Part shown: positions 14,703 to 52,500 of the stretch, in pieces
Position numbering within the stretch: the stretch's first letter is position 1
Layout: every line of letters begins with the position of its first letter
Assembly: GCF_007746795.1 (NCBI RefSeq)
Contig: NZ_CP036343.1
Coordinates: 310,001 to 374,000 of the forward strand
DNA: 64,000 nt
Origin: Gimesia algae
Lineage (GTDB): Bacteria; Planctomycetota; Planctomycetia; Planctomycetales; Planctomycetaceae
Direction of reading: 5' to 3'
Notes under the pieces: model-generated
The model's input: the letters and a program-made list of their open reading frames with translations, nothing else
The model's database searches: none
What the model was told of the DNA's origin: nothing
Program-made: the position numbers and the translations under genes

Positions 14703-15195
14703 TGGGATTCCCTTCCCAGTAAATATGAACAATACCCCCTACGATTATCGGGTGCGTTTCATAACAGGTATTGACTCTCAGGTGAAGAGCGTTTTTCGGA
14801 TCCATGGCATCCAATTCTTATTTTCAACCGGTTTTTCAGGACTCCCTCCGGTCACGTTGCCGATTCCCCACATGTTGCTTTGAGGCATCCCTGGCGTTAA
14901 CTGAATGTCAACTAACGGGTTACGTGTAAACTGCGGTCGGGGGCTTGAGGCGTGTTGTTTTTTTACCTCAAGCGGCTGCGTTCCATTTCAGGGTGGTGCC
15001 AGAAAATCTCTGCCTGGATTGCTTTTATTATCTCCCTTTACGGTAACCACTTACGATTCCGGTTCTGAACAGTTTGTAAAAAAAGATTTACGGTTTGGCC
15101 CCTTTGGTATTCAGCTTGCTTTACATCCCTTTATCAACTTTGAAATGCAAACAACTCGATGCAAAACTTTCATATCAACTTTGGAGACCACCACG
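14703..15195. other. Intergenic leader of pilin genes
   Basis: This stretch holds no convincing gene. A frame is open from 14905 into the first pilin gene, but its N-terminal part looks non-coding. One stem, GCTTGAGG (14943-14950) with CCTCAAGC (14966-14973), encloses a T-rich loop and could be a leader structure or an attenuator for the pilin genes. No strong promoter match stands out. Confidence 0.4.
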
Positions 15196-15474
15196 ATGAA
15201 AAACATTATCAACCAACTGATCAACGACGAAGCCGGCTTCATTGTTTCTGCAGAACTCGTCCTGATTTCCAGCATCGCTGTGCTGGCCATGATTGTCGGA
15301 CTGTCTGAAGTCGCCAACAACGTCAACCAGGAACTGGAAGATGTCGGCAGTGCCTTCGCCAGCATCGACCAGTCTTACAAACTGAGCAACGCACATGGCC
15401 ACAAAGCCTGCACCGATGGCAGCAGATTCAATGACTGCCCTGACTTCTGCTCAGGTCAATGGGACGTGCAGTAA
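15196..15474 (+). CDS. Flp-like pilin, first tandem copy
   Basis: This 92-residue protein has a short charged leader (MKNIINQLINDEAG) and then a hydrophobic helix (FIVSAELVLISSIAVLAMIV), as in Flp/type IVb prepilins: cleavage after Gly14 would leave Phe1 and Glu6. The ATG at 15196 has GGAG about 10 bases upstream. Unlike ordinary Flp pilins, the C-terminal third has a cysteine-bearing motif, AHGHKACTDGSRFND then DFC, shared with the next gene. No tad/flp assembly genes lie in the window. It may form a surface pilus or a membrane-anchored small protein. Confidence 0.82.
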   Translation: MKNIINQLINDEAGFIVSAELVLISSIAVLAMIVGLSEVANNVNQELEDVGSAFASIDQSYKLSNAHGHKACTDGSRFNDCPDFCSGQWDVQ

Positions 15475-15612
15475 TCCTTTCGCTGAACTCTTCAACAACC
15501 CCGAAACGTGCTTTCTTTCCGACGACGACCGCCTGCAGGGCTTCACCACCCCTGCAGGCTCCGAAATACCCGAAACAAAAATGAACCAATTCTCTTTCTG
15601 GAGTCCATCACC

Positions 15613-15933
15613 ATGAAAACTATGCTGATCCGTTTAATGAACGACGAGGCTGGCTTTATTGTCTCGTCCGAGCTGGTCCTGATTTCCACCATCGCCGTGC
15701 TGGCCATGATTGTCGGGCTGAGTGAAGTGGCCCACGGCGTCAACCAGGAGCTGGAAGATGTCGGGAGTGCCTTCGGGCGAATTAACCAGAGCTACTACGT
15801 TGCGGGTGCTCACGGCCATAAAGCCTGCACGGACGGCAGCAGCTTCCATGATCAGGCTGACTTCTGTGATGGCGAGAACGATATCGTCTGCGACCGTTCA
15901 CCACGGCAGGAAGGTAACGGCTACTACAACTGA
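15613..15933 (+). CDS. Flp-like pilin, second tandem copy
   Basis: This 106-residue protein is a paralogue of the gene 139 bases upstream. The leader (MKTMLIRLMNDEAG), the hydrophobic helix starting FIVSSELVLISTIAVL, and the helix VNQELEDVGSAFG are almost the same in both. The motif AHGHKACTDGSSFHDQADFC is retained, and this copy has an added tail (about 20 residues with one more Cys). CTGGAG precedes the ATG at a normal distance. The pair probably shares one transcript that ends at the terminator at 16016-16053. Confidence 0.82.
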   Translation: MKTMLIRLMNDEAGFIVSSELVLISTIAVLAMIVGLSEVAHGVNQELEDVGSAFGRINQSYYVAGAHGHKACTDGSSFHDQADFCDGENDIVCDRSPRQEGNGYYN

Positions 15934-16087: not shown

Positions 16088-16582
16088 TTAAGTTAACCAG
16101 GAGCGGCTCTGATGTGGTTGTTCGGCTTTTTCCATGTGATGTGGAGGCTGGAGAGAATCGTGTGAGTGGATGATCGCCGATTGTTCTGGTATTTCCACCT
16201 GAATTTGTTCAATCAGTTCACACCAGCTCTCCCGATGAATCTCAAGGACTTTAATTGCATTCTGGATATATCTGGCATCCTGTTTCACATCGGCATGATG
16301 CAGATTTTCATAAACGAACACAAACAGCGCTTTAAGCTGGTCGACCATTTCCGGCTGTTGGGACGGATCCAGACCGCCAATCAGTTCTGCAACGAGGTCG
16401 CGGCTTCTATCGAGTGCAAAATGAGCCTGCTCAAAATGTTTTTCTTCGGCGGCCAGAGCTGCTTTTCTGGCAAAACGCAAGGCACCATCAACTACCATGA
16501 GATGTAACTGGTGCGGTTTTGCTGTTAAAACCTGGTTCTCGATATAATCAGTTCCGTTCATCGCTTTGGTGGCCCCTCGCAT
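16088..16582 (-). CDS. fliS: Flagellar export chaperone FliS
   Basis: This 164-residue cytoplasmic chaperone binds the C-terminus of newly made flagellin and keeps it from polymerising before export. The opening (YIENQVLTAKPHQLHLMVVDGALRFARKA) matches the FliS family's Y-x5-L-x-P-x-x-L-x-x-M-x-x-DG-A pattern. It is about 30 residues longer than usual because of a polar, His/Gln-rich tail (SLQPPHHMEKAEQPHQ). It is 46 bases downstream of fliD on the same strand, the standard arrangement. The start could be the ATG at 16561, seven codons in. Confidence 0.92.
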   Translation of the reverse strand: MRGATKAMNGTDYIENQVLTAKPHQLHLMVVDGALRFARKAALAAEEKHFEQAHFALDRSRDLVAELIGGLDPSQQPEMVDQLKALFVFVYENLHHADVKQDARYIQNAIKVLEIHRESWCELIEQIQVEIPEQSAIIHSHDSLQPPHHMEKAEQPHQSRSWLT

Positions 16583-16628
16583 TAATACAAATGAGTCTAA
16601 AACTTTAAATAGTTATGATGCAGACTGC

Positions 16629-19349
16629 TTAACTGCTGATCGAATTCTGCAGACCATCCAGCGCCGTCTGCTGTGAATTCAACTGGTTGACGATGGTTTC
16701 CTGTAGTGTGAACTGTCGAATGAGTCGCTCACGTCTGGCTTCCAGAATCGTATTCAATTCATCAACGCGTGTATTCAATGCCAGTGCCGAAGCCTTTAGT
16801 GAATCGGTTTGTGCTTTGAGTGTTCCGGTAAACGGGTCAGTCATTGCTGTAATGACATCATTCATGACGACGGCGAACCCGGTGTCCTCCTGCTGGAAGA
16901 ATTCGGTGACAGCATCGGGGTCGTCAGCCAGCAGTGATTCGAGAGTGGCGCTGTTTAACTGCAATTTACCGCTGCCATTAAACTGAACTCCCAGCTGAGC
17001 CATGCTTTTGACAGAGCTGTTACTGATGGACAGCTTTTTCGTCAACATTCCTTCCAGGCGGGAAACGGTTGTCTGGACCAGACTGTTTCCGTTCAGCACG
17101 CCACGTGCATTGGTTTCGGAATCGTAACCGGTGAGTGAGTTCTTGGCGTCCACAAAACTGTTGTACGCATTAATGAAGGTCGTGACTGTGCTCTTAATTC
17201 CCGAAGTATCGCGGGCCACATTAATGGTTGACGATGACAACCCGGTAGAAAGGAGATCGATTTCCAGTCCCGTGATGGCGTCGTCAAAACTGTTGGTCGA
17301 GGAAGTCAGCAGGAACGAAGTCTGGGGGTTGCTACCGATACGGATCAATGCATCATCTGCATCCACGGATGTGGAGAAACCGAAATTATAATCGCTTTCC
17401 AGAATCAATTCGCCTGCCGCACCACTACGGGACGATGTAATCGATAGCCGGGCAGAATTAAAAGCCGTCCCATCGTCGATAATGGTGGCGGAAGCAACCC
17501 CGGTCGCATTGATTTTTTCTGTGATATCCTGGAGTGTGTCAGTCGCTTCAACGGAAATCTCCGTGAGCTGTCGACTGGTGACTCCGGTTGTTCCCGAGCC
17601 TTTTATGCCCAGGCTGGCCGCGACGGTGCCACCGGAAACTTCTTCGACTTTGACATCAAATGAGCTGCCCCCGGTGCCTTCTACAATAAAGCCGTCACCG
17701 TAATCGTTTAACCGTGCATTGATCTGTGCTCCGGCGGTGGCTGCAGCTTCATTGATTTTTGTGAGGACATCCCCAATCGTTTTTGTGGTGGCTGAGTCAG
17801 ATAATTTGACATTGAAGCTGACACCATCACGGTCTGTGATTCGAATACTTCCGGTTGTGACTGGTGTTCCGTTTTTACCATAGGTTGAGAGTGAAGTATC
17901 CTCGTTGATGTAGCGTAAATCGAGTGAACCGGAATCAACGGTGTGTTTTGAGTCACCCAGAACGGTATCAATTTTCAGGAAGCTGCCCAGGTTCCCGGTT
18001 GTATCCTGGATTTCAATCGACGTGCCCGAAGCAGCGGAGGTATCTTTGATCTGGATGCCTGTTTTGGTGGCGTTGAGACTGGCCTCAATTTGAATGCTGC
18101 CGTTGGCGTTGATGGCATTGATCACATCGTCCAGTGTTTCCACTCCGGAAAAATCAATGGTGGCATTGCCGCCGGCTCCATCTTCAAAGTAAACCTGGCC
18201 GGCATCGAGCACAGTGCTGGTTGAGGACACGCCTCCATTTAAATTCCGCAGAAGTACAGAATTCAAACCACCCGACAGAGTACCCGTGATAGTGCCACCC
18301 AGGCCCGTGGTCTGGATGCCCAGTTCTCTGGCTGCGAGCGAACCGTTTAAAGCAGTGACTTCAAATGGTGTAGCAACACCGCCGGTGTTATCAGTCAGGC
18401 TGAGCTTACCGTCACTGGTGATGGCCGCAGTGATCTTTCCACCATTCGATGCGTGGTTGTTGACCAGGTCAACAACGTCACCGACCGTTTGTGCAGAGTC
18501 CAGATCGATATTAAACGTTGAAGCATCAGAGGCGGTGATCTGAAAATCTTCGGAGCCGGATACGGTGGTAATACCATTACCGTCATTGATCTGCGCCAGA
18601 TTGAAATCGCTGGTCACGCGGTAGACCGAATCACCTGTTAAAGTCGAACCTGCAACAGACTGCAGTATACCCAGGTCGGCGGCTGTTTTTCCTCCAGAGA
18701 CTTCTGCGACTTTTAGTGTTCCGAGACCGGAGCTCGTGTCTGTAAGAACCAGATGGTCATCTTCAATGCTGGCAACAATGGAAGTTGCCGAGCCGTTAAT
18801 CTCGTCAACGACATCATCAATGGTGAGGGTTCGCGTCAGATCGATGACTTCTGTCTGGCCATCCCTGTCGGTGATGCGAATGCTGCCCCGCTGAACTCCC
18901 AGGCCATTATTCAATTCTTCCAGCAGCTTGGAATCATCCAGTTTTCCACCTTGTGAAAGTGTGATGGTAGTGGCGGTGCCCAGGGGAGTAGTGTCGGAGT
19001 CCGCAAATCCATTTGAGACAATCTGGTGATTCGATGAAAGTCTTAATCCCTGCAGCTGATAAGTGGCTGCGGTCGCGGTGCTGTTGGCGGCGACACTGAA
19101 CTGGCTGCTATCAGAACTGGTGGCCTTCAGGGTTTCGAAGGTACTTTTCTGGTTCAGTTTCTGAACGGCTGTGTTAAGCGTCAACAGGTTGGCTTCGAGG
19201 GTTTTGATGCCCCCTTCGGTTGCCTCAAATGCGGATGCACGGTTCGCAAGTTTCACCAGAGCGTTACGTTGTACGCCGATGATTGCATCAGCGATTTCCG
19301 TGATGTTCAATCCGGTTGCCAGACCGACACCGGAACTGATGCCTGACAT
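16629..19349 (-). CDS. fliD: Flagellar filament cap protein FliD, enlarged
   Basis: This 906-residue protein is FliD (hook-associated protein 2), which caps the growing filament and helps flagellin insert. The N-terminal domain starts SSGVGLATGLNITEIADAI and the C-terminal domain carries the expected coiled-coil ends (about residues 690-900). The protein is far longer than the usual 450-700 residues. The extra length lies in the middle, which holds repeated flagellin-hook-IN-like units: two copies of GSIRITDRDG, plus TVGDVVDLVNNHAS, TLDDVINAINANGS and TLQDITEKINATG. AGGT stands 5 bases before the ATG. A sigma-28-like box lies about 85 bases upstream. Confidence 0.95.
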   Translation of the reverse strand: MSGISSGVGLATGLNITEIADAIIGVQRNALVKLANRASAFEATEGGIKTLEANLLTLNTAVQKLNQKSTFETLKATSSDSSQFSVAANSTATAATYQLQGLRLSSNHQIVSNGFADSDTTPLGTATTITLSQGGKLDDSKLLEELNNGLGVQRGSIRITDRDGQTEVIDLTRTLTIDDVVDEINGSATSIVASIEDDHLVLTDTSSGLGTLKVAEVSGGKTAADLGILQSVAGSTLTGDSVYRVTSDFNLAQINDGNGITTVSGSEDFQITASDASTFNIDLDSAQTVGDVVDLVNNHASNGGKITAAITSDGKLSLTDNTGGVATPFEVTALNGSLAARELGIQTTGLGGTITGTLSGGLNSVLLRNLNGGVSSTSTVLDAGQVYFEDGAGGNATIDFSGVETLDDVINAINANGSIQIEASLNATKTGIQIKDTSAASGTSIEIQDTTGNLGSFLKIDTVLGDSKHTVDSGSLDLRYINEDTSLSTYGKNGTPVTTGSIRITDRDGVSFNVKLSDSATTKTIGDVLTKINEAAATAGAQINARLNDYGDGFIVEGTGGSSFDVKVEEVSGGTVAASLGIKGSGTTGVTSRQLTEISVEATDTLQDITEKINATGVASATIIDDGTAFNSARLSITSSRSGAAGELILESDYNFGFSTSVDADDALIRIGSNPQTSFLLTSSTNSFDDAITGLEIDLLSTGLSSSTINVARDTSGIKSTVTTFINAYNSFVDAKNSLTGYDSETNARGVLNGNSLVQTTVSRLEGMLTKKLSISNSSVKSMAQLGVQFNGSGKLQLNSATLESLLADDPDAVTEFFQQEDTGFAVVMNDVITAMTDPFTGTLKAQTDSLKASALALNTRVDELNTILEARRERLIRQFTLQETIVNQLNSQQTALDGLQNSISS

Positions 19350-19431
19350 GTTACCTAACCTGTATTAAGGTTGAATGAGATAATGTTTTTCATAATCAGT
19401 CCGCGCATGCGGAACTACTGCATCTAACTAT

Positions 19432-19460
19432 TTATCGGTTAGTCAAAGCTTACTGCTTGA
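19432..19460 (-). promoter_or_regulatory. Candidate sigma-28-type promoter for fliD
   Basis: On the minus strand, ACCGATAA (19439-19432) matches seven of eight bases of the FliA -10 element GCCGATAA. A TCAA (19460-19457) stands 17 bases upstream, a poor match to the TAAA -35 element. The site is 83 bases from the fliD start, in the 190-base gap after the methyltransferase gene. This is a pattern match only. Confidence 0.35.
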
Positions 19461-19539
19461 GTAGAGTGCTTGATTACAGCGCTGCTGTTCTGACTTTGAC
19501 CTGGACTCTATCGGTTGTAGTGAATATGTATGTTGTGGT

Positions 19540-20322
19540 TTATTCGATCACTGCGTAGGAAAGAGAAGTAGCAAACGGAAATCTCTTCAAACGCAGGTTT
19601 GGCAGCCCTAGAGTTTCCATGGCGGCCAGTGTTTCTCCGGGAAATAAATCCATATTGAGTTCATCAAAGGCGATAATTGCCCCTTTGGGCATCCGGGGAA
19701 TCAGCAGTTCCAGCGCGACTTTGGTTGGCTCGTACAGGTCTGCATCCAGATGCAGCAGTGAAACTACCAGGTGCTGATTCTTTTCCAGGTACTCTGGCAG
19801 TGAAACGCTGATGTCTCCTTTCACCAGTTCGACCTTAGAAATATGATTCAGGTAACGTGAGGAATTATAAACCTGAATCGCTTTCTCCAGGTCTTCCATG
19901 GCATTTTCTTCTGATTTAAAGCCACCGACTTCCAGATGTTCGCTGGTACCCGTTGTGTCTTTCTCACTCAATGAGGGAAAGCCTTCAAATGTATCAAAGC
20001 CGATAATTTTGCGGAGATAATTGACCGGTTCCAGAATCGCGCTGAATTGTGCCCATGCCATCAGGCTGGCACCACGGTGTACACCCAGTTCAACAACAGA
20101 TCCGTTGACTTCCAGCTGCTGTTTAAAAATTTCATAGCGGGCCAGCAGTTTAGTAATGGATTGCCGGGAGACGTACTTGGTAAACGCATCGAGTTTGTTC
20201 AGATTCGTGCCGACACTCGATTCCCAGTATGCTTCGACAGCATTCAACGCATTAAGGTCACTGTCAGACTGGTTTTGTGACTCGCCGACGTTCCCTTTTA
20301 ACAGCCCTTTTTTTTCTGCCAT
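19540..20322 (-). CDS. TylF-type SAM methyltransferase
   Basis: The protein has 260 residues from the ATG at 20322. The SAM-binding glycine loop is VVELGVHRGASLM, followed by IIGFDTFEGFPSLSEKD and LLHLDADLYEPTKVALE, the pattern of TylF/MycF/NovP-like sugar O-methyltransferases (the DAD segment holds the metal ligands in that family). An upstream in-frame start at 20439 would overlap the PhyH gene and adds a non-conserved stretch. The place between the dioxygenase and fliD genes suggests that it methylates a flagellar glycan. Acceptor unknown. Confidence 0.85.
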   Translation of the reverse strand: MAEKKGLLKGNVGESQNQSDSDLNALNAVEAYWESSVGTNLNKLDAFTKYVSRQSITKLLARYEIFKQQLEVNGSVVELGVHRGASLMAWAQFSAILEPVNYLRKIIGFDTFEGFPSLSEKDTTGTSEHLEVGGFKSEENAMEDLEKAIQVYNSSRYLNHISKVELVKGDISVSLPEYLEKNQHLVVSLLHLDADLYEPTKVALELLIPRMPKGAIIAFDELNMDLFPGETLAAMETLGLPNLRLKRFPFATSLSYAVIE

Positions 20323-20377
20323 TTCAGTTGCGCTTTTATAATGAAGTGTGAAGGGGATCTGACAGGATGTAGCCTGA

Positions 20378-21229
20378 TTAAGATGCGGTTCGCTGCATCG
20401 CCTGTCTGGCATGGGTGATATCTCTGATCCGCCAGCCATCTCTCAAAAACTGCGGATCTCTCAGGTCTCGATACCGCAGATTTAACACAAACCGGACATG
20501 ATCTGATTGATTCTTACAGGGAGTATGTGGAGTCAGGCTGTGAAACAGCAATACGTCGCCGACTTCCAGTTCCGTTGGTACAACACGTTCATATTGCTGA
20601 ACTACCGCGGGAGGCAAAGAATGCCATTTTGTGTTGATGCCATGGTTATGTTCATCATGGGCGACCGGGGCTTTCTGGTGTTCTCCCAGCGCGAGCGTCA
20701 GACTCCCGTTATTCCGATCCGTTTTCTGCAGCGGTGCATACAGGGTGATCGTAGAATAGGGACCTTCGTTGTAATACCAGTCCTGATGCCATGAAGCGAG
20801 ATGCCATTCCGCGTGGGGCATACTCATGAGAATAATGTAACGATCATGGATTGAGAGTTCCGGAGAGAGCAGTGCTTCGAGGATCGCCAGTAATTTGGGA
20901 TGTGCTCCCATTGAGTGTAAAGCAGGCGCAGCATTCATGGAATCATATAAAACACTCTGCGCACCAGGATGGTTCCGTTCCAGTTCACGCAGGCGATCGC
21001 TGATCTGTACGATTTCATTCGCGTCTTGTGAAGTGCTGGCGCCGAAGTGTCGTTCCAGGAGAGAGAGTCGGCCTGACATATCTTTGCGGATGGAAAGAAA
21101 CTCATCAGGTGAGAACAGTCCCTTTACCAGGATCGCACCTTCTTCTGCATATTGTTGTTTGAGTGCGTCTGAAAGTTCAAAACCGTCCTGGGGACAGTTC
21201 AGAGTGCATAATTGATTGAGGGGCAGCAT
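20378..21229 (-). CDS. Phytanoyl-CoA dioxygenase family (PhyH)
   Basis: This 283-residue protein is a predicted Fe(II)/2-oxoglutarate dioxygenase. The metal triad is visible: His and Asp in WHQDWYY near residue 148 and the distal His in HSLTPHTP near 230, with an Arg (RFVLNLRYR) about 13 residues later for 2-oxoglutarate. GDVLLFHS is typical of PhyH proteins. It lies inside the flagellar locus, 38 bases downstream of the sulfotransferase-like gene. In such a setting, hydroxylation or oxidation of a sugar or side chain is plausible; the substrate is unknown. Confidence 0.88.
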   Translation of the reverse strand: MLPLNQLCTLNCPQDGFELSDALKQQYAEEGAILVKGLFSPDEFLSIRKDMSGRLSLLERHFGASTSQDANEIVQISDRLRELERNHPGAQSVLYDSMNAAPALHSMGAHPKLLAILEALLSPELSIHDRYIILMSMPHAEWHLASWHQDWYYNEGPYSTITLYAPLQKTDRNNGSLTLALGEHQKAPVAHDEHNHGINTKWHSLPPAVVQQYERVVPTELEVGDVLLFHSLTPHTPCKNQSDHVRFVLNLRYRDLRDPQFLRDGWRIRDITHARQAMQRTAS

Positions 21230-21267
21230 CGGTTTCCATCCCTGGTTAATTTTGCTGAAAGAGAAAA

Positions 21268-21957
21268 TTATTCACCGTAGCCGAACTGGGTCACGAGCGG
21301 TTTGAAAAACCGGGTGACCATAGCCTGTTCTGATTGAGAAAGTCGGTTGCGCCATTTTCCAATCATTAATGGTTGAATTGGTTCAGTGTCTACGGTGTGT
21401 TCACCATCGATTCGTAATGCTGCTGAAGTGACTGCAGTGTCGGAGACAGCTGCAGGAGCCATCAGTAGGACATTCATTTCCTGTGCAATCGCCTCAACGT
21501 CATCCAGTTTCAGCAGGACTCCCAGCTTGGTTGCCATCTGAAAGATCAGTCCTTCTGCATTTTTCAATAGATGCTCGTAAGGGATGACCATGATGCCGGG
21601 CAGGCAGAGTGCATGATGAATTTCCTGGTATGCAGCGACCGTCTGATCGACGGCATCTGCAAACGACATGTCCTGGAATTCCATTTCTGCACAAACGACG
21701 TCCCGCGGATCTCGATAGTGATAAAAGGGGCGTATGGCATCATCCTGGGCAGCTGAAACCGCTTCTTCCGTCAGGAAATCGAACTGCAGGATTAACCGCT
21801 CATTCACATCCATGGTGCCGATGAGCTGGTTGAGTTCTTCAACAGAATTTGCCTTCTCAACTCGAAACTCAAGGCTTTGATGCTGCCAGATTTTCTGAAA
21901 GACGGCTTGTGACCAGTCTGTACCTGAGTTGGGAATGCCGAAATTGAAAATGATCAT
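21268..21957 (-). CDS. Sulfotransferase-like protein
   Basis: This 229-residue protein resembles PAPS-dependent sulfotransferases. The N-terminal strand-loop GIPNSGTDW corresponds to the 5'-phosphosulfate loop, although the usual Lys is absent. HYRDPRDVV near residue 82 is the 3'-phosphate segment, and VIPYEHLLKNAEG matches the family's later Y-E-x-L motif. The end KWRNRLSQSEQ resembles the G-x-W-K/R substrate-side loop. AGGAAG precedes the ATG by 5 bases. In this locus it could sulfate a flagellar glycan. Loss of the lysine makes activity less certain. Confidence 0.8.
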   Translation of the reverse strand: MIIFNFGIPNSGTDWSQAVFQKIWQHQSLEFRVEKANSVEELNQLIGTMDVNERLILQFDFLTEEAVSAAQDDAIRPFYHYRDPRDVVCAEMEFQDMSFADAVDQTVAAYQEIHHALCLPGIMVIPYEHLLKNAEGLIFQMATKLGVLLKLDDVEAIAQEMNVLLMAPAAVSDTAVTSAALRIDGEHTVDTEPIQPLMIGKWRNRLSQSEQAMVTRFFKPLVTQFGYGE

Positions 21958-22027
21958 AATACTTCCTGTATGAGATGAAGCTTAGAAAATTTGACAGAGG
22001 AGAACGCCTGGCAGGATTTATGAATTT

Positions 22028-25000
22028 CTATTTGAGATCCAGTTCGTTTGCTTCACGCTGACGAGTTTTCTGCGTGAGGAATTGCGGACGCGGAACTTTC
22101 GTTTCTGCCTGTGTACTGCGGTAGGGATGCTGATCCTGAAAATAATCAATAAGTTTTCCCTGGTATTCAATCAGTAGCGTTTCAAAGGGGATTTGATTAC
22201 GTTGAATTTCCAGTACGATATCTGCGGCCCGCCATTGCGTGGCAATCAGAATGATATCCACTGGTTCTGCGATGAGCTTATCACGGAAGTAGATTTCCTG
22301 GCCGGTTCCCGGGACGAACGTGCCGACTTTGTTCATGTCGGAATCAATCACTGTCGGGAACCGCTCTTTGTCCAGTTTGTGCTGATTGATGAAGGCAGCC
22401 GCTTTCCCCGTGCCTCCCCAGATGGCAGTTCGCTTGCCGGTCTCTGCGAGTTCGTCAAACTGAAACGCGAGTTGTGTTGCTGACTGCAGAGCTTTTTCCT
22501 GAAATGCGATCGCCTGCCGCGCCAGTTCCACCTGATGACTCTGGGGTTGGAAGCTGGCCATCCCGTAGATGACTTCGTCGTTATAACTGGTTTCAATCAG
22601 GTCAACACTGGTGGCACAGCGTTTCAGTAAGCGTTCCAATGAGAGTGTTGTGAAATGTGAGTTGTGTTCGTAGAAGAAATCCACAGTACGACCGGCGGCC
22701 AGTACGCCATCTATACAGGGGACTTCAATAAACAGACTGGTTTCACAATCAGCTACATTGGCAGCAAATGCGACTTCCTGAGCAAATCCCAACGGGTTCA
22801 TCAGGTGTTCGAAAACATGGCGGCTGATAATGAGATCCGGCTTCAACTCAGCCAGATGCAGGCCTGGTTCAAACAGCATGGCACGGGCTTCGATCAAGCC
22901 ATCTTCGGTTTCGATCTCTGCGTTGGGATCAAAGCCAATGAATTTTCCCCAGGGTATTTTTTTTGCCAGGGAACGCAGTAAATGTCCTTCGCCGCAACCA
23001 ATTTCCACAACGATTGGATTTTCCGGGAGTCTGACGGCAATCAGGTCACAGACATTCTGCAGGTGTTCGGACCAGATTGCACCTTTGTTAAACATCAGGT
23101 TGGGTTTATCAGAATAAGGGACCTTGGCATAATCAAAGGCAGCATTTGAGATGTGGCCACAGTCCACGCATCGCATAAAATCATGTGGCAGTCGTTCCAT
23201 TGCCTGAGCTTCTTCACAGCTTTGAGGCCACGCCAATGTGGTCAATGGCAGTAATCCCCCATCGTAAAACTGGACTGCGATATGATAACCACAGGCGGGA
23301 CAGGTGTAATTCTGCATGGCAGAATTCAGGATTTTGATGTAGTCAGCGTTTCCTGTCTGATTTAATGAAGCATCCATGCTGGGTTCCTTGTTGATGTCCG
23401 AGCTATTCAGACTGAGAGATGATTGTTTGTCAGGCTGCTGGGTATCGCTGTGTTTTAATGCTGATTCGAAAAAAGATTCCATTTCCCGAACCGTATTGAT
23501 GTCTTCAAAAACCAGATGACTTTTGGAGAGGATTTTCAGGCGAAGCTGATCGCGGAATGCTTCATCAGCACCGATGCGACAGGCCAGTTCGATATACTCA
23601 TCAATCGTAGAAACGACGCAATCCTGAAGCCCCATCTTCTTATAAATCGCGAGCATGCCCCGCCCGCGCATGTATTTTGCCGGCAGCGTGACAACCGGGG
23701 TTCCGATTGCCATCGACTGATAGGATGTATTTCCGCCTCCAAAGTGGAGAGGGTCAAGCAGTACATCAGAAATATAAATCAGATTCAAAAAGTCAGATGT
23801 TGCCATCCCGCGTAACCAGTGAATCCGATCCACCACGTCCGGGAATGTGTTATTGAAACGTTCAACCAGCAGATTTTTCCATTTGGAGTTTTTGTCACGA
23901 ATCATGACAATCCGTGCCTGCGGGTCCTTTCGCAGAATTCCCGCCAGAATCTGATCAAATTCGGGATGAATTTTAAACAGCGTCTGAGGGCAGGCATAAA
24001 CGTGTTCGTCATCGGAAAGCCCGAACGCAGCCCGTGCTTTAATCTTTTCAGGCAGCGTAGGGCGATAGTAGTACGAAGGAAGCGCATCCAATTGTACCAG
24101 TTGCTCTGAATAATGTTCTTCGGCATCTTCCGGCTCGATCAGTTTGCTGGAGATAAAGTAGTCGATGGTTTTTAAACCGGTTGTAATCGGGTGTCCCCAG
24201 GTCACACATTGGATAGGGGCATGTCGCGTGGTGGCCAGCGAGAAGATAAGGGGGTCCATGCCGATATCGGCATAAAACAGAATATCCAGTTCCAGGCTTT
24301 GTAATCGTTGATTGGCCTGCAGGAGGTCAATCCCTAGAAAGACATATTCGTCTGAGTTGGCACGAATTTCCTGGGCAACGTTGTCATTATGTTTTAATGG
24401 TGAGATGGTGATGACATGATATTTTTCACGATCAAAATTCTTGATGATTCCTTTCATCAGGGTCCCGATTGTATGTGCATAGAACAGGTTGGAGATAAAG
24501 CCGATTCGGATGCGACCATCTCGTTCTACTGTTGGGTTTTGTTGATTCCAACTGAGTGTGTTCTTTAGTTGATGCAACTCCGCCATACGTTCGATAATCG
24601 GCCGATCGTTATATCCCTGGTAAGCGAGATAAAACGTACCGGGAGTTAATTTGATTGAAGCGTCGATCTGAATCTCGTCGGCGTGCATCTCTTCAATTTT
24701 TTCCATAAAGGATATACGCACATCCTCAATCGCTTCCTGGGAAGCAGGTATGGGAGGCAGCAAGCTGGCGATCGCAAGTCGATATTCCGGCAGGGGGCGC
24801 AATTGGAAAGCTTTCTCCAATGCCTCTTTTGCTTCTTCGAACTGACCCATGCCTTGGTAGAGAGACGCCAGATTATTGTAAATGGAGGGACTGGAATCAT
24901 CGAGTTTCAACGCACGCTGGAAATATTTGAGTGCTTTACGGGTTTGCTTTTTTTGATTGCTGAAGAATCCGCGAAAGCTCCAGAGAGTGGCGTTATCAGG

Positions 25001-26224
25001 ATGATCATTGAGCGCTTGCTTTGTCTGCTCTTCAGCATCCTCCATTCGCAATTGTGATGAATAGAGGTCGATCAGTTTTAATCGTGACTGAAGATGATCC
25101 GGTTCCAGCTCAACCAGTAATTCAAAATAGCCAACAGCAGAACCGATTTTTTTTTGCCGTAATCTGACGGAACCCATTCCATACAGGGAAGCAGTGTTCG
25201 TCTGGTCGCTCTGGTAGAGACTTTGGAAGATTTCATAGGCATTGTCCAGGTCGCCGAGCGATGCCATCAGAGACCCCAGGTGAAAAGCAGCACCAGGATG
25301 ATTTCGGTGTTTTTCCAGAACTTCTCGATACGCGAGCATTGCCTGGGAAATTTCTTTTGACTTTTCGAATGCCTTACCCAGGTGAAATAAAATTTCATAA
25401 TTATCTGGTGCCTGCTTTAACGCATCCTGAAAACATTTGATGGCGGATTCAAATTCTTTCTGCGCGGAATAAACGATGCCCAGGTTGTTTTTGATTTCCC
25501 AACTACCTGGATGTAACACGATCGCTTTTTGGAGCACCGTGATTGCTGCTTCGTATTTCTGCTGTGATGTCAGAAAGACAGCGTAATTTTTCAGAGTACC
25601 AATATCATCAGGAGCAAACTGCAGTGCCCGTTGATAGGACTTTTCGGCAGCTTCCGGGGCGTCTGATTTCGCGAGCGCATTCGCCAGATTGAAATGAGCC
25701 GTATGTACCTGCGGTACCAATTTCACGACATTTCGGAAAATCGAAATCGCTTCTTCTAGCTCATCTTCTTCCTGTAAGAGGTTTCCGAGATTGATTAACG
25801 CGTCGATGTAATCGGGTTTGAGTTGAAGGGCTTTACGGTATTCATCGATGGCTGCCTGCTTTTTTCCAGAACTGGCGAGTGTGATTGCCAGATTGTAGAT
25901 GAAAGTCGGGTTCTGAGAATCCAGCTCGATGGCACGTTCATAGTTGGTAATCGCGTCTTGAAATTTTCCTAAGCCTTTACAGGCGGCACCGCGATTGGAA
26001 AAGAACGAAGCGATCCCGTCGTTCCGGCAGATCGCCCGTGTCATGAAATCGATGGCTTTGTGATATTGTTTCAGATGCAGATAGACCACACCCAGTAAAT
26101 GCAAGGCATCAATCTGTCCGGGATCGTGTTGCAAAACTTCGCGATACAGTTCTTCTGCCAGAGGGAGATTGCCCGCCTGATGCTGTTGAACCGCAGTTGC
26201 CAATAGTTCCTGAGGTGATGGCAT
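22028..26224 (-). CDS. TPR / GT41 O-GlcNAc-transferase-like / methyltransferase fusion
   Basis: This 1398-residue protein has three parts. Residues about 1-500 are TPRs (at least twelve, e.g. ALNLGNLLQEEDELEEA-type units). Residues about 565-920 match the catalytic part of GT41 (OGT/SPINDLY): FYAHTIGTLMKG gives the conserved His, CPQTLFKIHPEFD the UDP-contacting Lys, and FGGGNTSYQSMAIGTPVVT the donor loop. Residues about 970-1398 form a sugar C-methyltransferase-like module: a CPAC/CVDC zinc part, the SAM loop VVEIGCGEGHLL near 1075, and a Rossmann-like end (AIWGGTGKAAAFI). It follows fliC on the same strand, so flagellin is the likely acceptor. The fusion of a glycosyltransferase and a C-methyltransferase in one chain is unusual. 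No frameshift is visible. Confidence 0.92.
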   Translation of the reverse strand: MPSPQELLATAVQQHQAGNLPLAEELYREVLQHDPGQIDALHLLGVVYLHLKQYHKAIDFMTRAICRNDGIASFFSNRGAACKGLGKFQDAITNYERAIELDSQNPTFIYNLAITLASSGKKQAAIDEYRKALQLKPDYIDALINLGNLLQEEDELEEAISIFRNVVKLVPQVHTAHFNLANALAKSDAPEAAEKSYQRALQFAPDDIGTLKNYAVFLTSQQKYEAAITVLQKAIVLHPGSWEIKNNLGIVYSAQKEFESAIKCFQDALKQAPDNYEILFHLGKAFEKSKEISQAMLAYREVLEKHRNHPGAAFHLGSLMASLGDLDNAYEIFQSLYQSDQTNTASLYGMGSVRLRQKKIGSAVGYFELLVELEPDHLQSRLKLIDLYSSQLRMEDAEEQTKQALNDHPDNATLWSFRGFFSNQKKQTRKALKYFQRALKLDDSSPSIYNNLASLYQGMGQFEEAKEALEKAFQLRPLPEYRLAIASLLPPIPASQEAIEDVRISFMEKIEEMHADEIQIDASIKLTPGTFYLAYQGYNDRPIIERMAELHQLKNTLSWNQQNPTVERDGRIRIGFISNLFYAHTIGTLMKGIIKNFDREKYHVITISPLKHNDNVAQEIRANSDEYVFLGIDLLQANQRLQSLELDILFYADIGMDPLIFSLATTRHAPIQCVTWGHPITTGLKTIDYFISSKLIEPEDAEEHYSEQLVQLDALPSYYYRPTLPEKIKARAAFGLSDDEHVYACPQTLFKIHPEFDQILAGILRKDPQARIVMIRDKNSKWKNLLVERFNNTFPDVVDRIHWLRGMATSDFLNLIYISDVLLDPLHFGGGNTSYQSMAIGTPVVTLPAKYMRGRGMLAIYKKMGLQDCVVSTIDEYIELACRIGADEAFRDQLRLKILSKSHLVFEDINTVREMESFFESALKHSDTQQPDKQSSLSLNSSDINKEPSMDASLNQTGNADYIKILNSAMQNYTCPACGYHIAVQFYDGGLLPLTTLAWPQSCEEAQAMERLPHDFMRCVDCGHISNAAFDYAKVPYSDKPNLMFNKGAIWSEHLQNVCDLIAVRLPENPIVVEIGCGEGHLLRSLAKKIPWGKFIGFDPNAEIETEDGLIEARAMLFEPGLHLAELKPDLIISRHVFEHLMNPLGFAQEVAFAANVADCETSLFIEVPCIDGVLAAGRTVDFFYEHNSHFTTLSLERLLKRCATSVDLIETSYNDEVIYGMASFQPQSHQVELARQAIAFQEKALQSATQLAFQFDELAETGKRTAIWGGTGKAAAFINQHKLDKERFPTVIDSDMNKVGTFVPGTGQEIYFRDKLIAEPVDIILIATQWRAADIVLEIQRNQIPFETLLIEYQGKLIDYFQDQHPYRSTQAETKVPRPQFLTQKTRQREANELDLK

Positions 26225-26527
26225 GAGATCTTCTTTGAATCACTTTTGTGATTGAAAAAAATTCAAATAGTACTGAGCGAAACTGCCTGAGGCAGAACGC
26301 TCGGCAGACTTTTCCGGTTATTCTGTTTGTATCGGCTGCGGTGGGGGGCTAGATAAGCAGTTTCTCTGGTCTGCAGAAAATCAATCGTAATCTCGGTCCT
26401 TCACCTCAGAATGGTTGGTAAGCTGGGTGGGAATGAAGATATAAATAAAAAAACACTACCCATCATTGGATGGATAGTGTTTTTGTTAATTCAGTATTTC
26501 TCATTCGATGAATGAGGCCTTTGAGGA
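26225..26527. other. Gap between fliC and the GT41 fusion gene
   Basis: This 303-base gap contains the fliC terminator (26447-26485) and, nearer the fusion gene, a minus-strand GCCGATAC (26336-26329) that matches seven of eight bases of a FliA -10 box, 105 bases before the start codon. No good -35 box accompanies it. The fusion gene therefore probably has its own promoter here. No ORF is credible. Confidence 0.4.
26447..26485. terminator. Flagellin gene terminator
   Basis: A long hairpin with near-symmetric ends: AAACACTA...TAGTGTTT outside and CCATC...GATGG inside, with a four-base ATTG loop, flanked by A and T runs on both sides. It starts about 40 bases after the flagellin stop on the minus strand and is followed there by a run of seven T. 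It should end most fliC transcripts before the fusion gene. Confidence 0.85.
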
Positions 26528-28336
26528 TTATCTCAAGAGACTCAATACCTGTTGTGGGTTCTGGTTGGCAATCGAGAGAACCGAAATACCAGCCTGGTTC
26601 AAAATCTGAGCTTTCGTCAGATTTGCGGTTTCGACAGCGAAGTCGGTATCCACAATCTGGCTACGTGCTTCAGAAATGTTTTCCAGAGCAACACCCAGAG
26701 AGGAGACGTTGGTTTCGATCACGTTCTTCTGAATCGCACCCAGACGACCGCGAAGGGTGGAAACACGGTTGACCGCTTCTTCGATGATGTTCACCAGGTC
26801 AGAGCCGGGTACTGAAGGACCGACGTCCAACAGACTCTTTCCACCACCGGAACCCAGTTCGAACAGCTTACCGGAGACACCGCCCAGACGGGCTGTGTTG
26901 ACCGCTTCAATTCCGATACCAACCTGACCAGCGGCTGACACGTCCTGTCCAATCTGGAACAGTGAACCACCACCAGTGATGGTGATGCTGGCAGTATTGT
27001 CAACAGTGTTCGCGGCAGCAGTGAAGGAGAACGATGCATCCAACTGTTGCGACCGCAGGTTCGCTGACAGACCGGAACCCTGGGCAACCTGACCGTTGAT
27101 TCGTGCAACAATGTCCGAACCAATGTCTCGTTTCAGAGAATTCCCGTCGGTAATATTATCGACTGTGTCAAATGTTCCAGACAGCACGTTGACGTCCACG
27201 AATTCATCAGCACCATAGTTATTGGCACTGAAGGTCAGGTAAGCGTCCGTACCACCGGCTAAGGCAGCAGAAGCTGCAGCGTCGACCACACCGGCACCAG
27301 CACCTTCCACGGCTGTTGAGACGTACGCGTTGGCATCTGCGTTAGCATCCAGCAACGTTTTGATGTCGGCTGCAGTCGAGGTAATGGCACTACCAGCGTT
27401 CGTTGCCAGACTGACGACAATGTTAATGTCCGTGGCATTATTCGTGACAGTCACGCCTAAAGCTTGACTGGCCCCACTAGGGTCGACAAACGAAATGTTA
27501 ATATTTTGGTTTGTATCACCCAAGATACTGTCCGATGAGCGAGCGTCGGTAAAAGTCAAATCGGAGTTGACGGCAGCACTGTCGACTGTCAGGTTGCTGG
27601 CAACCTTATTGGTTTTGGTCGCTGTCACACCTGTAATATCGGTCACGCCATTCACAGCATCCTTGACGTTGTCCAGCGTGCTGGATGCACCAAGGAAGAG
27701 CACCTGAGAACCACTGGAACCACCCACTTCGATGGTGGTCGCAGCTGCCAGTCCACCGTCAACAGCACTGTAATCCAGACTGGCCTGAGTAGCTGCAGTG
27801 ACGATAGTAGCGTCGAGTGTAATCGAACTGCTGCTACCAAATACGGCTTCGTTGACCTGGAAGTCGGAGAGTTTTGCTGAATCGACTGCAGAAGACTGTG
27901 TACGGAATGCTTTGCTTCCGTCAATCAGTTTGTCACCAGCGAATGATGTATTGGCGGAAATTCGGTTGATCGCTGATAAAGCAGTGTCGATCTGCAGCTG
28001 ATTAGCTGAGATTTCGTCTTGAGACAAAGCACCTTCGTTCAGACCTTCCTGGACCAGACCACGAACCTGATTCAACAGGTTAGTCACTTCGCCCAGAGCC
28101 GAGTCAGCAGTCGCAATTACGTTACTGGCACGGTTACTGTTTTTGATTGATTGTTCAATAGCAGATACCTGAGATCGCAGAGTTTCACTGGCGATCAGAC
28201 CTGATGGATTGTCTTTACCGGAGTTGATTTTCAAACCGGTTGACAGTCGTGTCAGCGAGGTATCCAGAAGATTCGTAGATTTGTTTAAACTACGCAGACC
28301 TCGCAACGAGGCAACGTTAGTATTAATTCGCGTCAT
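26528..28336 (-). CDS. fliC: Flagellin
   Basis: This 602-residue protein is the filament subunit. The N-terminal D0/D1 region (RINTNVASLRGLRSLNKS, then LSTGLKINSGKDNPSGL, residues 1-140) and the C-terminal D0/D1 region (about 515-602, ending NQNPQQVLSLLR) are well conserved. The middle, about 370 residues, is rich in Ala, Ser, Thr, Asp and Val, has no Cys, and gives many possible O-glycosylation sites. It is longer than the common 270-500 residues. AAAGG lies 10 bases before the ATG. Its transcript ends at a strong hairpin. The modifying enzymes and FliD/FliS lie downstream. Confidence 0.97.
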   Translation of the reverse strand: MTRINTNVASLRGLRSLNKSTNLLDTSLTRLSTGLKINSGKDNPSGLIASETLRSQVSAIEQSIKNSNRASNVIATADSALGEVTNLLNQVRGLVQEGLNEGALSQDEISANQLQIDTALSAINRISANTSFAGDKLIDGSKAFRTQSSAVDSAKLSDFQVNEAVFGSSSSITLDATIVTAATQASLDYSAVDGGLAAATTIEVGGSSGSQVLFLGASSTLDNVKDAVNGVTDITGVTATKTNKVASNLTVDSAAVNSDLTFTDARSSDSILGDTNQNINISFVDPSGASQALGVTVTNNATDINIVVSLATNAGSAITSTAADIKTLLDANADANAYVSTAVEGAGAGVVDAAASAALAGGTDAYLTFSANNYGADEFVDVNVLSGTFDTVDNITDGNSLKRDIGSDIVARINGQVAQGSGLSANLRSQQLDASFSFTAAANTVDNTASITITGGGSLFQIGQDVSAAGQVGIGIEAVNTARLGGVSGKLFELGSGGGKSLLDVGPSVPGSDLVNIIEEAVNRVSTLRGRLGAIQKNVIETNVSSLGVALENISEARSQIVDTDFAVETANLTKAQILNQAGISVLSIANQNPQQVLSLLR

Positions 28337-28503: not shown

Positions 28504-29059
28504 TCCTCGAACTGATGTGGCTTATCTTTCCATAACAAAACCATTCCAGATTCAGACGACGCAAAGAATGAACAGAGGGAAATTGCGCATTCATGCTCAT
28601 ATTCTATCGGAATGTTACTTTAGGTAATCTGAGAGTCTTTGGTGTTTTTTTGAAAATAAACCGATCCCTCTGGTATCGCACGCAGGAAGGGATGAGTTGT
28701 AACTATTATCCGTTCCTTCATCAAAAGTTCGGCTGTAACTCTATTAGCGTGAGAGAGGAAAGTGGTGATCGTATCATACAAAGGAATATTTATATTAAGG
28801 CTGGCTGCAAGATTGTTGCTGTTTGCCTAACCGGACTCTGCCCGTGTTGCGGAACGGGTAATGACTTCTTAACTGCTAAAGTTTGCCATGAGGTAAATCC
28901 CTCTTACTCTCACAGCACTTAGCTTGTGCCCCGTTTCAATACCTGCGTCAGACTGGTTGAAATCCAGGATGAGTAATCCATCGCTGGGAGCTGTCGAACA
29001 GATTTGTTGCCGGACGAAATGAATCACGCTGACATTCAACTTGCAGTTAGACTGTGTCC

Positions 29060-49226: not shown

Positions 49227-49536
49227 GACGGCGCTGATCCTTACGGTCCCCACTGCCGACGAATCAGCAGCGTTATGATTCTTTGCTTTAATATACCAGA
49301 AATTCTGAAATCTCACAGAATGAGACCATTCCTGACAAAAAAAACATAAATCGATGAATCCCGATATGAATTAGCGTGAGATCAGGCTGCAGTTCGGTAT
49401 ATTTTAATAGATCACGATTTACGCTGATGTGAACTTCTCGCGTACAGTATTGTTTGTCGGGTCAGGAATTCCTGAATTTCGCAAAACTCGCCTGCTGTGA
49501 ACTTTCTTCCAGAATCTGATATCGGAATTGCCTGCT
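49227..49536. other. Divergent regulatory region, ECF sigma and LamG-DUF1549 copy 1
   Basis: This 310-base gap holds the promoters of two divergent units. Blocks here recur upstream of the second LamG-DUF1549 gene: GTGAGATCAG (49376-49385), GGTATATT, TAGATCA-GATTTA, and GTACAGTATTGTTTGTCGGG (49442-49461; copy 2 differs at one base). The conserved blocks are candidates for promoter or regulator sites. No ORF. Confidence 0.5.
49442..49461 (+). promoter_or_regulatory. Conserved upstream block, copy 1
   Basis: This 20-base block, GTACAGTA-T-TGTTTGTCGGG, matches 53223-53242 in 19 of 20 bases. It lies about 76 bases before the GTG start of the first LamG-DUF1549 gene. Retention in both copies suggests a regulatory site, but recent duplication alone could explain it. 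Confidence 0.4.
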
Positions 49537-52500
49537 GTGAATCAAAACCCTGTGACATATATCAAAAGTGCCTTTGTTCTTCTGCTGGTTTCACTTACCT
49601 TGCCTCTGAACCCGGGGCTCTCATTTGCCAATCAAGTCAAAACAGCAGCAGTGGCAGAACAAAAGAAAGCTTCTCCCAGCTATCGGGAATTGATTCTGTC
49701 TCATAAACCAGTAGCTTACTGGAGTTTCGAACAACGCGAACAAAACGGTTTCAACAGTCTGTCGGTGAGCGGGCAGGATAAAACAGAGGCAGGAAAGCCC
49801 GTCCCGGCTCTGGTGAGCGGCAAACGAGTGGATCTCACTGCGGGACCTCGGCCTGCCGAATTTCCGTTGTTTGACGGTAAGAATCAGGCGGCTGCGTTTC
49901 AGCCGGGCCAGGGATTCCTGCGGGTTGTTGATCCCGGCGAGCAGAGCATTTTTGATTTTACAGCCGGGGATGCGATCACTCTGGAAGCGTGGATCAATCC
50001 CAATTCCACGAAGTCCGGTCAATTTTACTACATCATCGGAAAAGGTCGCACGCATCGCAAAGGAGTTGCCCGGGACAATCAAAATTATAGTTTGAGGCTC
50101 ACTGGTTCAGAAATCAGCTTTCTGTTTTGTACCCAGCCGGAAAAGAAAGGTGAAAAACCGACCTACCACCGTTGGACTTCTTCCGGGGGCGGAATCAGTA
50201 CCCATAACTGGCATCACGTGGTTCTCACCTGCACCTTCGGAAAAGTAAAAAGCCTGAAAGCCTACGTTGACGGACAGCCTGTTTCCGGGAAATGGGATGT
50301 CGGCGGGGATACCTCGCGGACACCTGTGGTTGATAATGATGAAGTCTGGATTGGTTCTTCGATGGGGGGGGCAGCGAACAGTTCGTTTGATGGGAAACTG
50401 GATGAAGTGGCTGTCTACCGCAGTGCACTGACGGCAGCACAGGTGGCGTCACACTTTAAATATGCTGCTTTCGATCCACAGATCGACTGGGCCGCGATTC
50501 CTGAAGATCGCGTCAGAGTCGATATTCTGGAAGGGATTCCCAATAAGAAATCCTGGAAGTTTCGGCCGCCACGACTGGCAGAAACTTTTACACAGCCGCA
50601 CTTCGCGTTGATTGAAATTCCCAACCGTTATTCCGAGCGTGGCGTGAAAGTGGATCGCCCCGATCCATTCCTGGTGCGGGCAATGTCTCGAACGACACTG
50701 CCGGCAGGCAAAAAACGGATTCTGTTACGTGCCCGCAATGCATCGCGGCTTTATATTGACGACAAGCTGGTGGCAGAAACCGATTTCCACAGAATTACCA
50801 ATAGCGGTCACGACGTCGTCTACGATGTTGATCTGAGCCTGGCGCCAAATATTCGTCCCTTACACCGGGGTGATACGGAAAAGGTTGTCGAGTATACCGG
50901 CGATGGTAAGTCGCACCGCATTCGCTTCGAGATGATCGTGGGCGGTTCTCGGCATCGTCCCGATTTCGGAGAGACTGCCGTTTTTATTGGTAATCCCGGT
51001 GAAGATTTTCAACTTCTGACTCCGTCTGATCAGGTGGTCATGCTGACCGACGAAGACTGGTTACCATTCGCACGCCAGTACCGCTACAGTCAAATCGCTG
51101 TCAACGCAGCACATCGCCGGGAAGCTTCCGCGAAGGAAGATCAGTACTGGGAATCGCGGTATCAACTTGCAAAAGCAGAAATCCTCAAGCAGCCTCAAGT
51201 CAAAGTGCCGGCTGCAGTGAACGGGCTGCGCGCGAACAACGCCATCGATCACTTTATTAATGTGCGTCTGTCGAAAGAGAAAGCTGCTCAGGCTCCATTG
51301 CTCAATGATCTGGCTTTTCTAAGGCGGCTGTCTCTGGACACGACCGGGACCGTACCTGCTCCAAACCAGATCAGAGATTACCTGGCCGACGATCCAAAAA
51401 CACGACGTGCGAATGCGATTCAACGCTTGATCAACGATCCCGCCTGGGCCGATAGCTGGGTCGGTTACTGGCAGGATGTGCTGGCGGAGAACCCGAATAT
51501 CCTCAATCCGACATTGAACAACACCGGCCCCTTCCGCTGGTGGATTCACGAATCATTTTACGATAACAAGCCATTTGACCGTTTCCTGACCGAACTGGTC
51601 ATGATGGAAGGCAGCAAGTATTTCGGTGGCCCGGCCGGTTTTGAAATGGCGTCACAGAACGACGCCCCGATGGCGGCCAAGGCACATATCATTGGTCAGG
51701 CCTTCCTTGGTCTGAATATGAAGTGTGCCCGCTGTCACGACGCGCCGTTCCATGACTTCAAACAGCGTGATCTGTTCAGCCTCGCCGCCATGCTGAAACG
51801 CAGCCCACAGGGTGTTCCCAACACCAGCTCTGTACCCGGCTTTGATTTCAAATCGAATTCGATGCTGATCTCAGTCACGCTGTTACCGGGAGAGAAGGTG
51901 ACTCCCCAATGGACTTTTGAAGACCTGGTCAAGCCCGGCACGTTCCCGGAAAATTATCTGCGGTCACCTCAGGATACGCGTCAGCAACTGGCCGCTACGA
52001 TTACTTCGCCACAAAATAAACGTTTTGTAAATGTGATTGTCAATCGCGTCTGGAAGCGGTATCTCGGCCAGGGACTGGTGGAACCCGTGGATGACTGGGA
52101 AGGTCAGGAACCCTCCCATCCAGAACTGATGAAGTACCTGTCACAGCAGTTTGTGATTCATGGCTATGATCTGAAGTATCTGGCACAGTTGATTTTCGAG
52201 TCAGATCTATATCAGCGAGAGGCAGCGACCGATAGCGCAAAAATCGAAGGGCTGCTGGATACGACTTATGATTTTTCTTCCCCGGTCCTGCGTCGGATGG
52301 AAGCCGAGCAGATTGTCGATTCGCTGTTTATGATCTGTGGAAAACCACTGGATGCCGGCCGGATGTGTATCGATATTGACGGTGCCCGCGACTATCACGT
52401 TTCACTGGACCTGGGATCGCCACGTCGCGCCTGGCAGTTTACCTCACCGTCCAATGAACGGGATCGTCCCAGCCTGGCGCTTCCGTTTGGCCAGCCTTTT

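Follow-up and report, generated by a model that had tools for sequence, protein, structure and literature searches.

The flagellar filament locus of the aquatic planctomycete Gimesia algae, contained in the window analysed here (64,000 nucleotides of contig NZ_CP036343.1, positions 310,001 to 374,000, part of one 7.93-Mb contig), is likely to be a cytosolic flagellin O-glycosylation island. A glycosyltransferase and sugar-modifying genes are inserted beside the flagellin gene fliC, which is the arrangement that marks such islands, and seven genes follow one another on the minus strand in the order fliC, a fusion of tetratricopeptide repeats (TPR) with a GT41 glycosyltransferase and a methyltransferase, a sulfotransferase-like gene, PhyH, TylF, fliD and fliS. 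We favour this interpretation of the sequence because the cassette holds its position throughout the genus, a flagellar-type element lies upstream of it, the GT41 residues are kept and relatives of the GT41 domain occur beside filament genes. The gene order, strand and coordinates had been proposed in an original prediction, and all seven genes were recovered as described there through open reading frames (ORFs) and Pfam domain matches. That prediction of a flagellin glycosylation system is supported in part: it remains the best interpretation of the island, and methylation of the glycan is likely, while the suggestion of sulfation is weakly supported and the argument from a Ser/Thr-rich flagellin fails. 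The genes and the parts of the fusion protein, in window coordinates, are:

26528-28336, minus strand: fliC, flagellin (Flagellin_N, E 5.5e-25; Flagellin_C, E 7.8e-22)
22028-26224, minus strand: TPR-GT41-methyltransferase fusion, 1398 aa (TPR; Glyco_transf_41, E 1.8e-25; Methyltransf_23, E 1e-13; Methyltransf_14, E 1.4e-9)
24755-26224, minus strand: fusion residues 1-490, TPR superhelix, the presumed flagellin-binding part (domain matches)
23510-24607, minus strand: fusion residues ~540-905, GT41 glycosyltransferase (His in FYAHTIG and Lys751 in LFKIHP kept)
22175-23329, minus strand: fusion residues ~966-1350, sugar C-methyltransferase-like region (Cys4 motif, S-adenosylmethionine domain, Methyltransf_14 domain)
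21268-21957, minus strand: sulfotransferase-like P-loop protein, a core gene of doubtful activity (PF00685, E 7.8e-4, below cut-off)
20378-21229, minus strand: PhyH-type 2-oxoglutarate/Fe(II) dioxygenase (E 2.8e-14; HxD...H and Arg invariant in 4 aligned)
19540-20322, minus strand: TylF/CalS11-type sugar O-methyltransferase (TylF, E 1.5e-10; the true start probably lies downstream of the ORF start at 20439)
16629-19349, minus strand: fliD, filament cap (domain matches)
16088-16582, minus strand: fliS, flagellin export chaperone (domain matches)

Besides fliC, the genome has one other Flagellin_N match, a putative FlgL at 3.47 Mb, which scores lower. The fusion protein combines TPR with a Glyco_transf_41 domain (PF13844, 89.6 bits against a cut-off of 25), and this gene adjoining fliC is the only GT41 found in the genome. 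Among solved structures the domain matches 5djs, which we take to be the Thermobaculum O-GlcNAc transferase (OGT), at E 3.4e-28, SPINDLY at 1.2e-21 and the OGT 110-kDa subunit at 1.2e-20. The His and Lys, to which we presumptively assign the functional roles of the GT41 catalytic residues, are kept in 16/16 aligned rows, five of which are ordinary GT41 enzymes of genus g24. Very improbably, the domain might instead be an N-glycosyltransferase (NGT) of the HMW1C/NGT type that modifies Asn sequons of flagellin, as it also matches the NGT structure 3q3e (E 5.6e-15) and an NCBIfam NGT model, the latter with 62 bits, far below the cut-off of 1000; however, the O-GlcNAc/SPINDLY-type match is the better one, each of the four sequons in flagellin residues 146-505 is missing from at least one of the 13 flagellins, and the five sequons common to all of them sit in the conserved N- and C-terminal parts.

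The fused methyltransferase region exceeds the cut-offs of PF13489 and PF08484, matches mycarose 3-C-methyltransferase (4rv9, E 3.7e-8) as well as TcaB9, and resembles sugar C-methyltransferases of these two kinds in its architecture; the Cys4, His and Glu-His residues, whose functional roles we assume to be those of the family, are kept in 32/32 rows, some of them duplicate contigs. The TylF protein is closest to CalS11, a TDP-rhamnose 3'-O-methyltransferase (E 1.8e-38; PF05711, 41.2 bits against a cut-off of 23), and, judged by what we take to be the Asp metal motif of the family, it has the features of a TylF/CalS11 sugar O-methyltransferase, with LDADLYEPT and FDEL invariant in 4/4 aligned sequences. 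Orthologues suggest a true start near 20322, and therefore no overlap with PhyH, so that the apparent PhyH-TylF overlap is probably a start-codon artefact. For the PhyH protein (PF05721) the best match is 1-deoxypentalenic acid 11-beta hydroxylase (E 1.1e-8); the protein carries H148, D150, H235 and R246, invariant in 4/4 and presumably the iron triad and the 2-oxoglutarate-binding Arg of such dioxygenases. With two methyltransferases that are both closest to deoxysugar methyltransferases, the predicted methylation of the glycan is well supported at the family level and is likely. In a phylum survey, TylF was found at E 1e-25 in 16/294 genomes, namely 6 Gimesia and 10 others.

Sulfation, by comparison, is doubtful. 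The sulfotransferase-like protein misses the cut-off of PF00685 (Sulfotransfer_1; 19.4 bits against 22), and its best match in the PDB has E 0.88. At the positions to which we presumptively assign binding of 3'-phosphoadenosine-5'-phosphosulfate (PAPS) and catalysis, namely the loop Lys/Arg, the base, the Arg and the Ser, the 5'-phosphosulfate loop has Asn in 15/16 Gimesia, Lys in G106 and Arg in the other-genus genome G018, the base position is Asp in 10 and His in 6, the Arg of the 3'-phosphate motif is kept in all 17 and the Ser position is variable. Three of the four canonical positions are thus absent or variable in Gimesia, and the G018 protein has canonical-looking residues (loop Arg, His, Ser). 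The gene is nevertheless part of the conserved core, and it seems to be kept by selection, since its dN/dS is 0.04-0.09 in five pairs; an adenosine 5'-phosphosulfate (APS) kinase is present in the genome, and PAPS could therefore exist. At E 0.001, the phylum survey found the gene in 7/294 genomes, namely six Gimesia and G018. A sulfated glycan was rejected as the principal interpretation, being weakly supported given the missed cut-off, the PDB result and the deviating residues.

From these families we infer a scheme, including acceptor, donor, each reaction and the order of steps, in which the TPR arm of the fusion protein would bind newly made FliC in the cytosol and the GT41 domain would put a sugar on surface Ser/Thr of FliC before FliS-assisted export. 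The fused C-terminal region would methylate the sugar at a carbon, most probably while it is still bound to its nucleotide, after which PhyH might hydroxylate or otherwise oxidise the C-methylated sugar and TylF might O-methylate a hydroxyl, perhaps the one made by PhyH, the two acting as an optional pair. The sulfotransferase-like protein would belong to the core, its reaction being uncertain.

Within Gimesia the arrangement is stable. The fusion gene, whole or cut by a contig end, is present in 16/17 genomes and kept at one place; in the 17th, a genome 74% complete, it was not found and TPR-level matches alone were returned. In 14/17 genomes fliC, cassette and fliD lie on one contig (fliC being cut once), with all four cassette genes in 12 and PhyH-TylF missing at the locus in 2, and the contigs of G108 and G112 start inside the cassette and run on to fliD-fliS with all following genes, in agreement with this order. 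Relatives of the fusion protein with 78-84% identity (L097-L100, L105) come from genomes that fall into one genus group with that of the window. For six genes, fliS being left out, dN/dS is 0.01-0.13 in 3 to 5 computable genome pairs, some with saturated dS. Because the order recurs across the genus and the six genes are under purifying selection, the gene order is not due to chance.

The candidate regulatory signals around the cassette comprise:

28605-28612, minus strand: TTCCGATA element upstream of fliC, sigma28-like -10, invariant in 13/13 aligned Gimesia upstream regions
26330-26337, minus strand: AGCCGATA element upstream of the fusion gene, sigma28-like -10, invariant in 13/13 aligned Gimesia upstream regions
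26449-26484, minus strand: 16-pair hairpin with T tail, intrinsic-terminator-like, just after fliC, separating it from the cassette

The labels of TTCCGATA and AGCCGATA rest on a sigma28 -10 consensus that we assumed. A strict sigma28 pattern had no match within the window, and complete sigma28 promoters were thus rejected, the CCGATA core alone being conserved; CCGATA also precedes fliD in 5 of the 7 rows shown (16 aligned). Terminator-like sites in the region are not enriched (13 against a shuffle mean of 11.8), and the hairpin after fliC has the most stem pairs. It seems that transcription of the cassette might start from a separate flagellar-class promoter, beyond a terminator downstream of fliC. 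The signals bear on the idea that a polysaccharide or small-molecule tailoring cluster was merely caught in the filament locus and has nothing to do with flagellin. Enzymes of the TylF, PhyH and C-methyltransferase kinds often occur in secondary-metabolite clusters, and in G018 three related genes sit outside flagellar genes, but characterised TPR-GT41 proteins modify proteins, CCGATA elements precede both fliC and the cassette, and the fusion stands at one place in 16/17 Gimesia genomes under purifying selection, which leaves this idea with a very small chance of being correct.

Two Gimesia genomes, G102 and G111, have fliC, the fusion, the sulfotransferase-like gene, fliD and fliS and lack both PhyH and TylF at the locus; because they group in trees among genomes with both genes, joint loss or replacement of the pair is the simplest reading. 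In steps of 250 bases, G111 and its relative G103 share 87.6-100% DNA identity outside a block that runs from about codon 740-763 of the fusion gene to shortly before fliD, and only 71-86% within it, where G111 matches G102 at 96.4-99.2%. Sites that unite G102 and G111 against G103 and G104 number 581, and 471 of them are located from codon ~733 of the fusion up to fliD. The other 110 lie outside the block, for the most part immediately ahead of the fusion gene, in its opening part and in fliD, and the locus is therefore a mosaic, not the product of one clean exchange. Since FliD support among the four genomes is 0.07, the recipient could be either G102/G111 or G103/G104. Their FliC proteins are 96.7-99.0% identical. 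On its left the block begins just past the LFKIHP motif, which is conserved, and close to the beginning of the second GT41 half, which in OGT (a GT-B fold) binds the nucleotide sugar, and the GT41 motif LPA[KR]YMRGRGML of 13/13 aligned PhyH/TylF-positive Gimesia reads LPSSYMRGRVTL in both genomes that lack the pair. It is suggestive that the donor half of GT41 and the tailoring enzymes behave as one module, a coupling that is unproven because one or few exchange events underlie it. Separately, G102 (L128) has a private second divergent stretch at fusion codons ~130-760, covering the later TPRs and the first GT41 half, which makes the fusion gene itself a mosaic. As a bolder and rather doubtful extension, the locus might be a planctomycete 'glycotype' cassette, in which one polypeptide grips flagellin and both adds and C-methylates the sugar, the donor half of GT41 is inherited with the tailoring enzymes, recombination swaps this unit between relatives with near-identical flagellins and so alters the chemistry of the filament but not its protein, and the glycan is C-methyl-branched, hydroxylated and O-methylated.

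Across the family, a flagellin-family gene was present in 74/101 genomes searched, and 60 fliC neighbourhoods were taken, 3 from Gimesia and 57 from others. The original prediction had called for a survey of the gene order in other planctomycetes and had named an occurrence of the four genes away from fliC in close relatives as one observation that would speak against it. The order is kept, and no such displacement was seen, within Gimesia; in family genera it was seen in part, as G018 has GT41, a separate C-methyltransferase and a sulfotransferase-like gene together ~0.9 Mb from its fliC, and G032 has a GT41-methyltransferase fusion on a different contig from fliC-fliD-fliS. By the queries used, L046, L060, L063 and L090 have a straight fliC-fliD-fliS, and comparison of the neighbourhoods shows an interval after fliC that differs from genus to genus but is constant within Gimesia, save in G102/G111. 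In genus g24 (L056 4539-15688, L042 4026-15322, L057 4163-15349), five TPR-GT41-type genes stand in a row after fliC; PF13844 was confirmed in both of those scanned, and the array is probably another, larger flagellin glycosylation island.

A search of 392 genomes of the phylum gave 11 outside Gimesia in which the GT41 subfamily of the fusion, defined by the motifs HTIG, GMDP, WGHPxTTG, LFKxHP and FGGGNT, scores 245 bits or more; the match that ranks next has 151 bits. In G035 the order is GT41, separate C-methyltransferase, fliD, fliS, with fliC on another contig, and in G437 GT41 is followed by TPR and glycosyltransferase genes and then by fliC-fliD-fliS, no C-methyltransferase being seen there. 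The G437 array (L157 7856-17473, L180 6-15584), in a distant planctomycete, comprises ~20 kb of TPR and glycosyltransferase genes directly upstream of fliC-fliD-fliS, with GT41, group 1, family 2 and one family 9 match. In Vampirovibrio, a relative of cyanobacteria, a GT41 and C-methyltransferase pair (L108 9989-19713) precedes fliK and a hook/rod gene by 2.3 kb. Two further observations concern an ornithine cyclodeaminase-family gene that follows the trio of G018 (L126 10756-11745), and a short contig of G014 (L103 154-3325) with GT41, C-methyltransferase and a 118-aa ORF in a row; this ORF matches TylF with 63 bits by phmmer and has no Pfam match, a hint that the same enzyme set may occur in another genus.

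These relatives could also be taken to mean that the protein glycosylated by the island is a different flagellar or envelope protein, such as the FliD cap, the hook or a secreted protein, and that the island lies beside fliC because of shared flagellar regulation. The pair of G035 adjoins fliD-fliS while fliC is elsewhere, that of Vampirovibrio adjoins hook-related genes, and in several genera a flagellar neighbour was not seen. FliC, however, greatly outnumbers every other protein of the filament, and the cassette directly follows fliC in 14/14 Gimesia contigs that hold fliC. There is also precedent for flagellin as the acceptor in FlmG, according to the available text of PMC7591256. We consider a different acceptor unlikely, if less so than an N-linked or a flagellin-independent role.

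Several findings weigh against flagellin glycosylation. The flagellin is not specially Ser/Thr-rich: Ser and Thr make up 22.2% of residues 146-505, whereas the central parts of 57 other flagellin-like ORFs in the family average 24.3% (16.3-29.3), so that the 'Ser/Thr-rich centre' of the original prediction is ordinary and was rejected as evidence. Surface Ser/Thr of flagellin are also less conserved than other residues (41/80 against 194/280 identical). None of the 57 non-Gimesia fliC neighbourhoods, many of them cut by contig ends, contained the sulfotransferase-like gene, PhyH or TylF. Of the 11 non-Gimesia planctomycetotal genomes with the GT41 subfamily, nine showed no flagellar gene next to it; the neighbours were compared with a few flagellar proteins in all nine, and in seven of them selected neighbours were also matched to Pfam. 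A C-methyltransferase was seen beside GT41 in G018 and G035 only. Among ten non-Gimesia GT41 and C-methyltransferase pairs (G018, G035, L101-L104, L106, L108, L112, L113), two have flagellar neighbours and none was seen for the other eight, which include L101, L102, L103, L104, L106, L112 and L113, several on short contigs; all 8 genomes behind the L-numbered pairs carry a flagellin-family gene. In favour, if weakly, a flagellin gene is commoner among the non-Gimesia genomes with the GT41 subfamily (10/11) than among controls (25/44; one-sided Fisher p 0.034); neither relatedness nor completeness was controlled for, and in one control the match falls below the family cut-off (24/44 above). The first count combines 4/4 and 6/7 genomes from two surveys and the controls come from the second, not all confirmed as among the 392; before counting, 22 other non-Gimesia matches of at most 151 bits were dropped, and three of these, G131, G140 and G144, were kept out of the controls. 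The island's four genes, moreover, include no sugar-biosynthesis gene, which is common, if not universal, in flagellin glycosylation islands; NeuB, RmlC and APS kinase homologues sit elsewhere in the genome, that of NeuB ~2 Mb from the island. Finally, AlphaFold models of the sulfotransferase-like protein and the GT41-methyltransferase were of too low confidence (pLDDT 45 and 35.5).

Flagellin glycosylation islands are known in kind. In Enterobacteriaceae, De Maayer and Cowan (2016, PMC4875605) reported islands downstream of fliC (fliDC/AZ locus) with one to eighteen proteins, among them, by description, GT41 with a fused methyltransferase domain in 194 strains and further methyltransferases. 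These belong to another phylum and insert between fliC and fliA, whereas the Gimesia cassette lies between fliC and fliD; they are very variable among strains, whereas the cassette is kept in 16/17 genomes, and the main text of PMC4875605 mentions no sulfotransferase, dioxygenase or hydroxylase. FlmG of Caulobacter crescentus likewise has N-terminal TPR and a C-terminal GT-B glycosyltransferase, is soluble, binds flagellins through its TPR part and acts before export, but it has 596 aa as against 1398, needs pseudaminic acid and is given no methyltransferase part in the available text (PMC7591256). In Clostridioides difficile type B, as far as the available text of PMC5207246 goes, genes downstream of fliC include a glycosyltransferase with a fused methyltransferase domain (GT2), which is credited with adding and methylating rhamnose; its glycosyltransferases are of PF00535 and its methyltransferase of PF08241, unlike those of Gimesia, and a terminal sulfonated peptidyl-amido sugar is made by other genes. 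That sulfonated flagellin glycan needs a putative ornithine cyclodeaminase (PMC5207246), and the likeness to the G018 locus may be coincidence. Geobacillus islands lie inside the flagellin locus and have methyltransferases, but the available text of PMC5109656 contains no GT41, sulfotransferase or dioxygenase.

By titles and starts of abstracts, the open-access literature held no report of planctomycete or Gimesia flagellin glycosylation, and no open-access paper was found that joins flagellin, glycosylation and phytanoyl-CoA dioxygenase, subscription papers being mostly not covered; nor was a hydroxylated, O-methylated, C-methyl-branched flagellin sugar described in the open-access texts as far as they were available. 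The enzyme set, the host phylum and the modular exchange between close relatives thus look new. If our interpretation is correct, nature provides strain pairs with nearly the same flagellin and different tailoring enzymes, and the effect of filament sugars on swimming, attachment and phage sensitivity would therefore be directly testable. A flagellin-targeting glycosyltransferase and a sugar methyltransferase would also be available as one polypeptide.

Elsewhere in the window, two adjacent short ORFs at 14905-15933 on the plus strand share a near-identical stretch, NDEAGFIVS.ELVLIS.IAVLAMIVGLSEVA, in the manner of a duplicated pilin or secreted protein, and have no Pfam match at 1e-4. At 49528-56783, also on the plus strand, lie two tandem paralogues of ~1160 aa with DUF1549, DUF1553 and a LamG-like domain.

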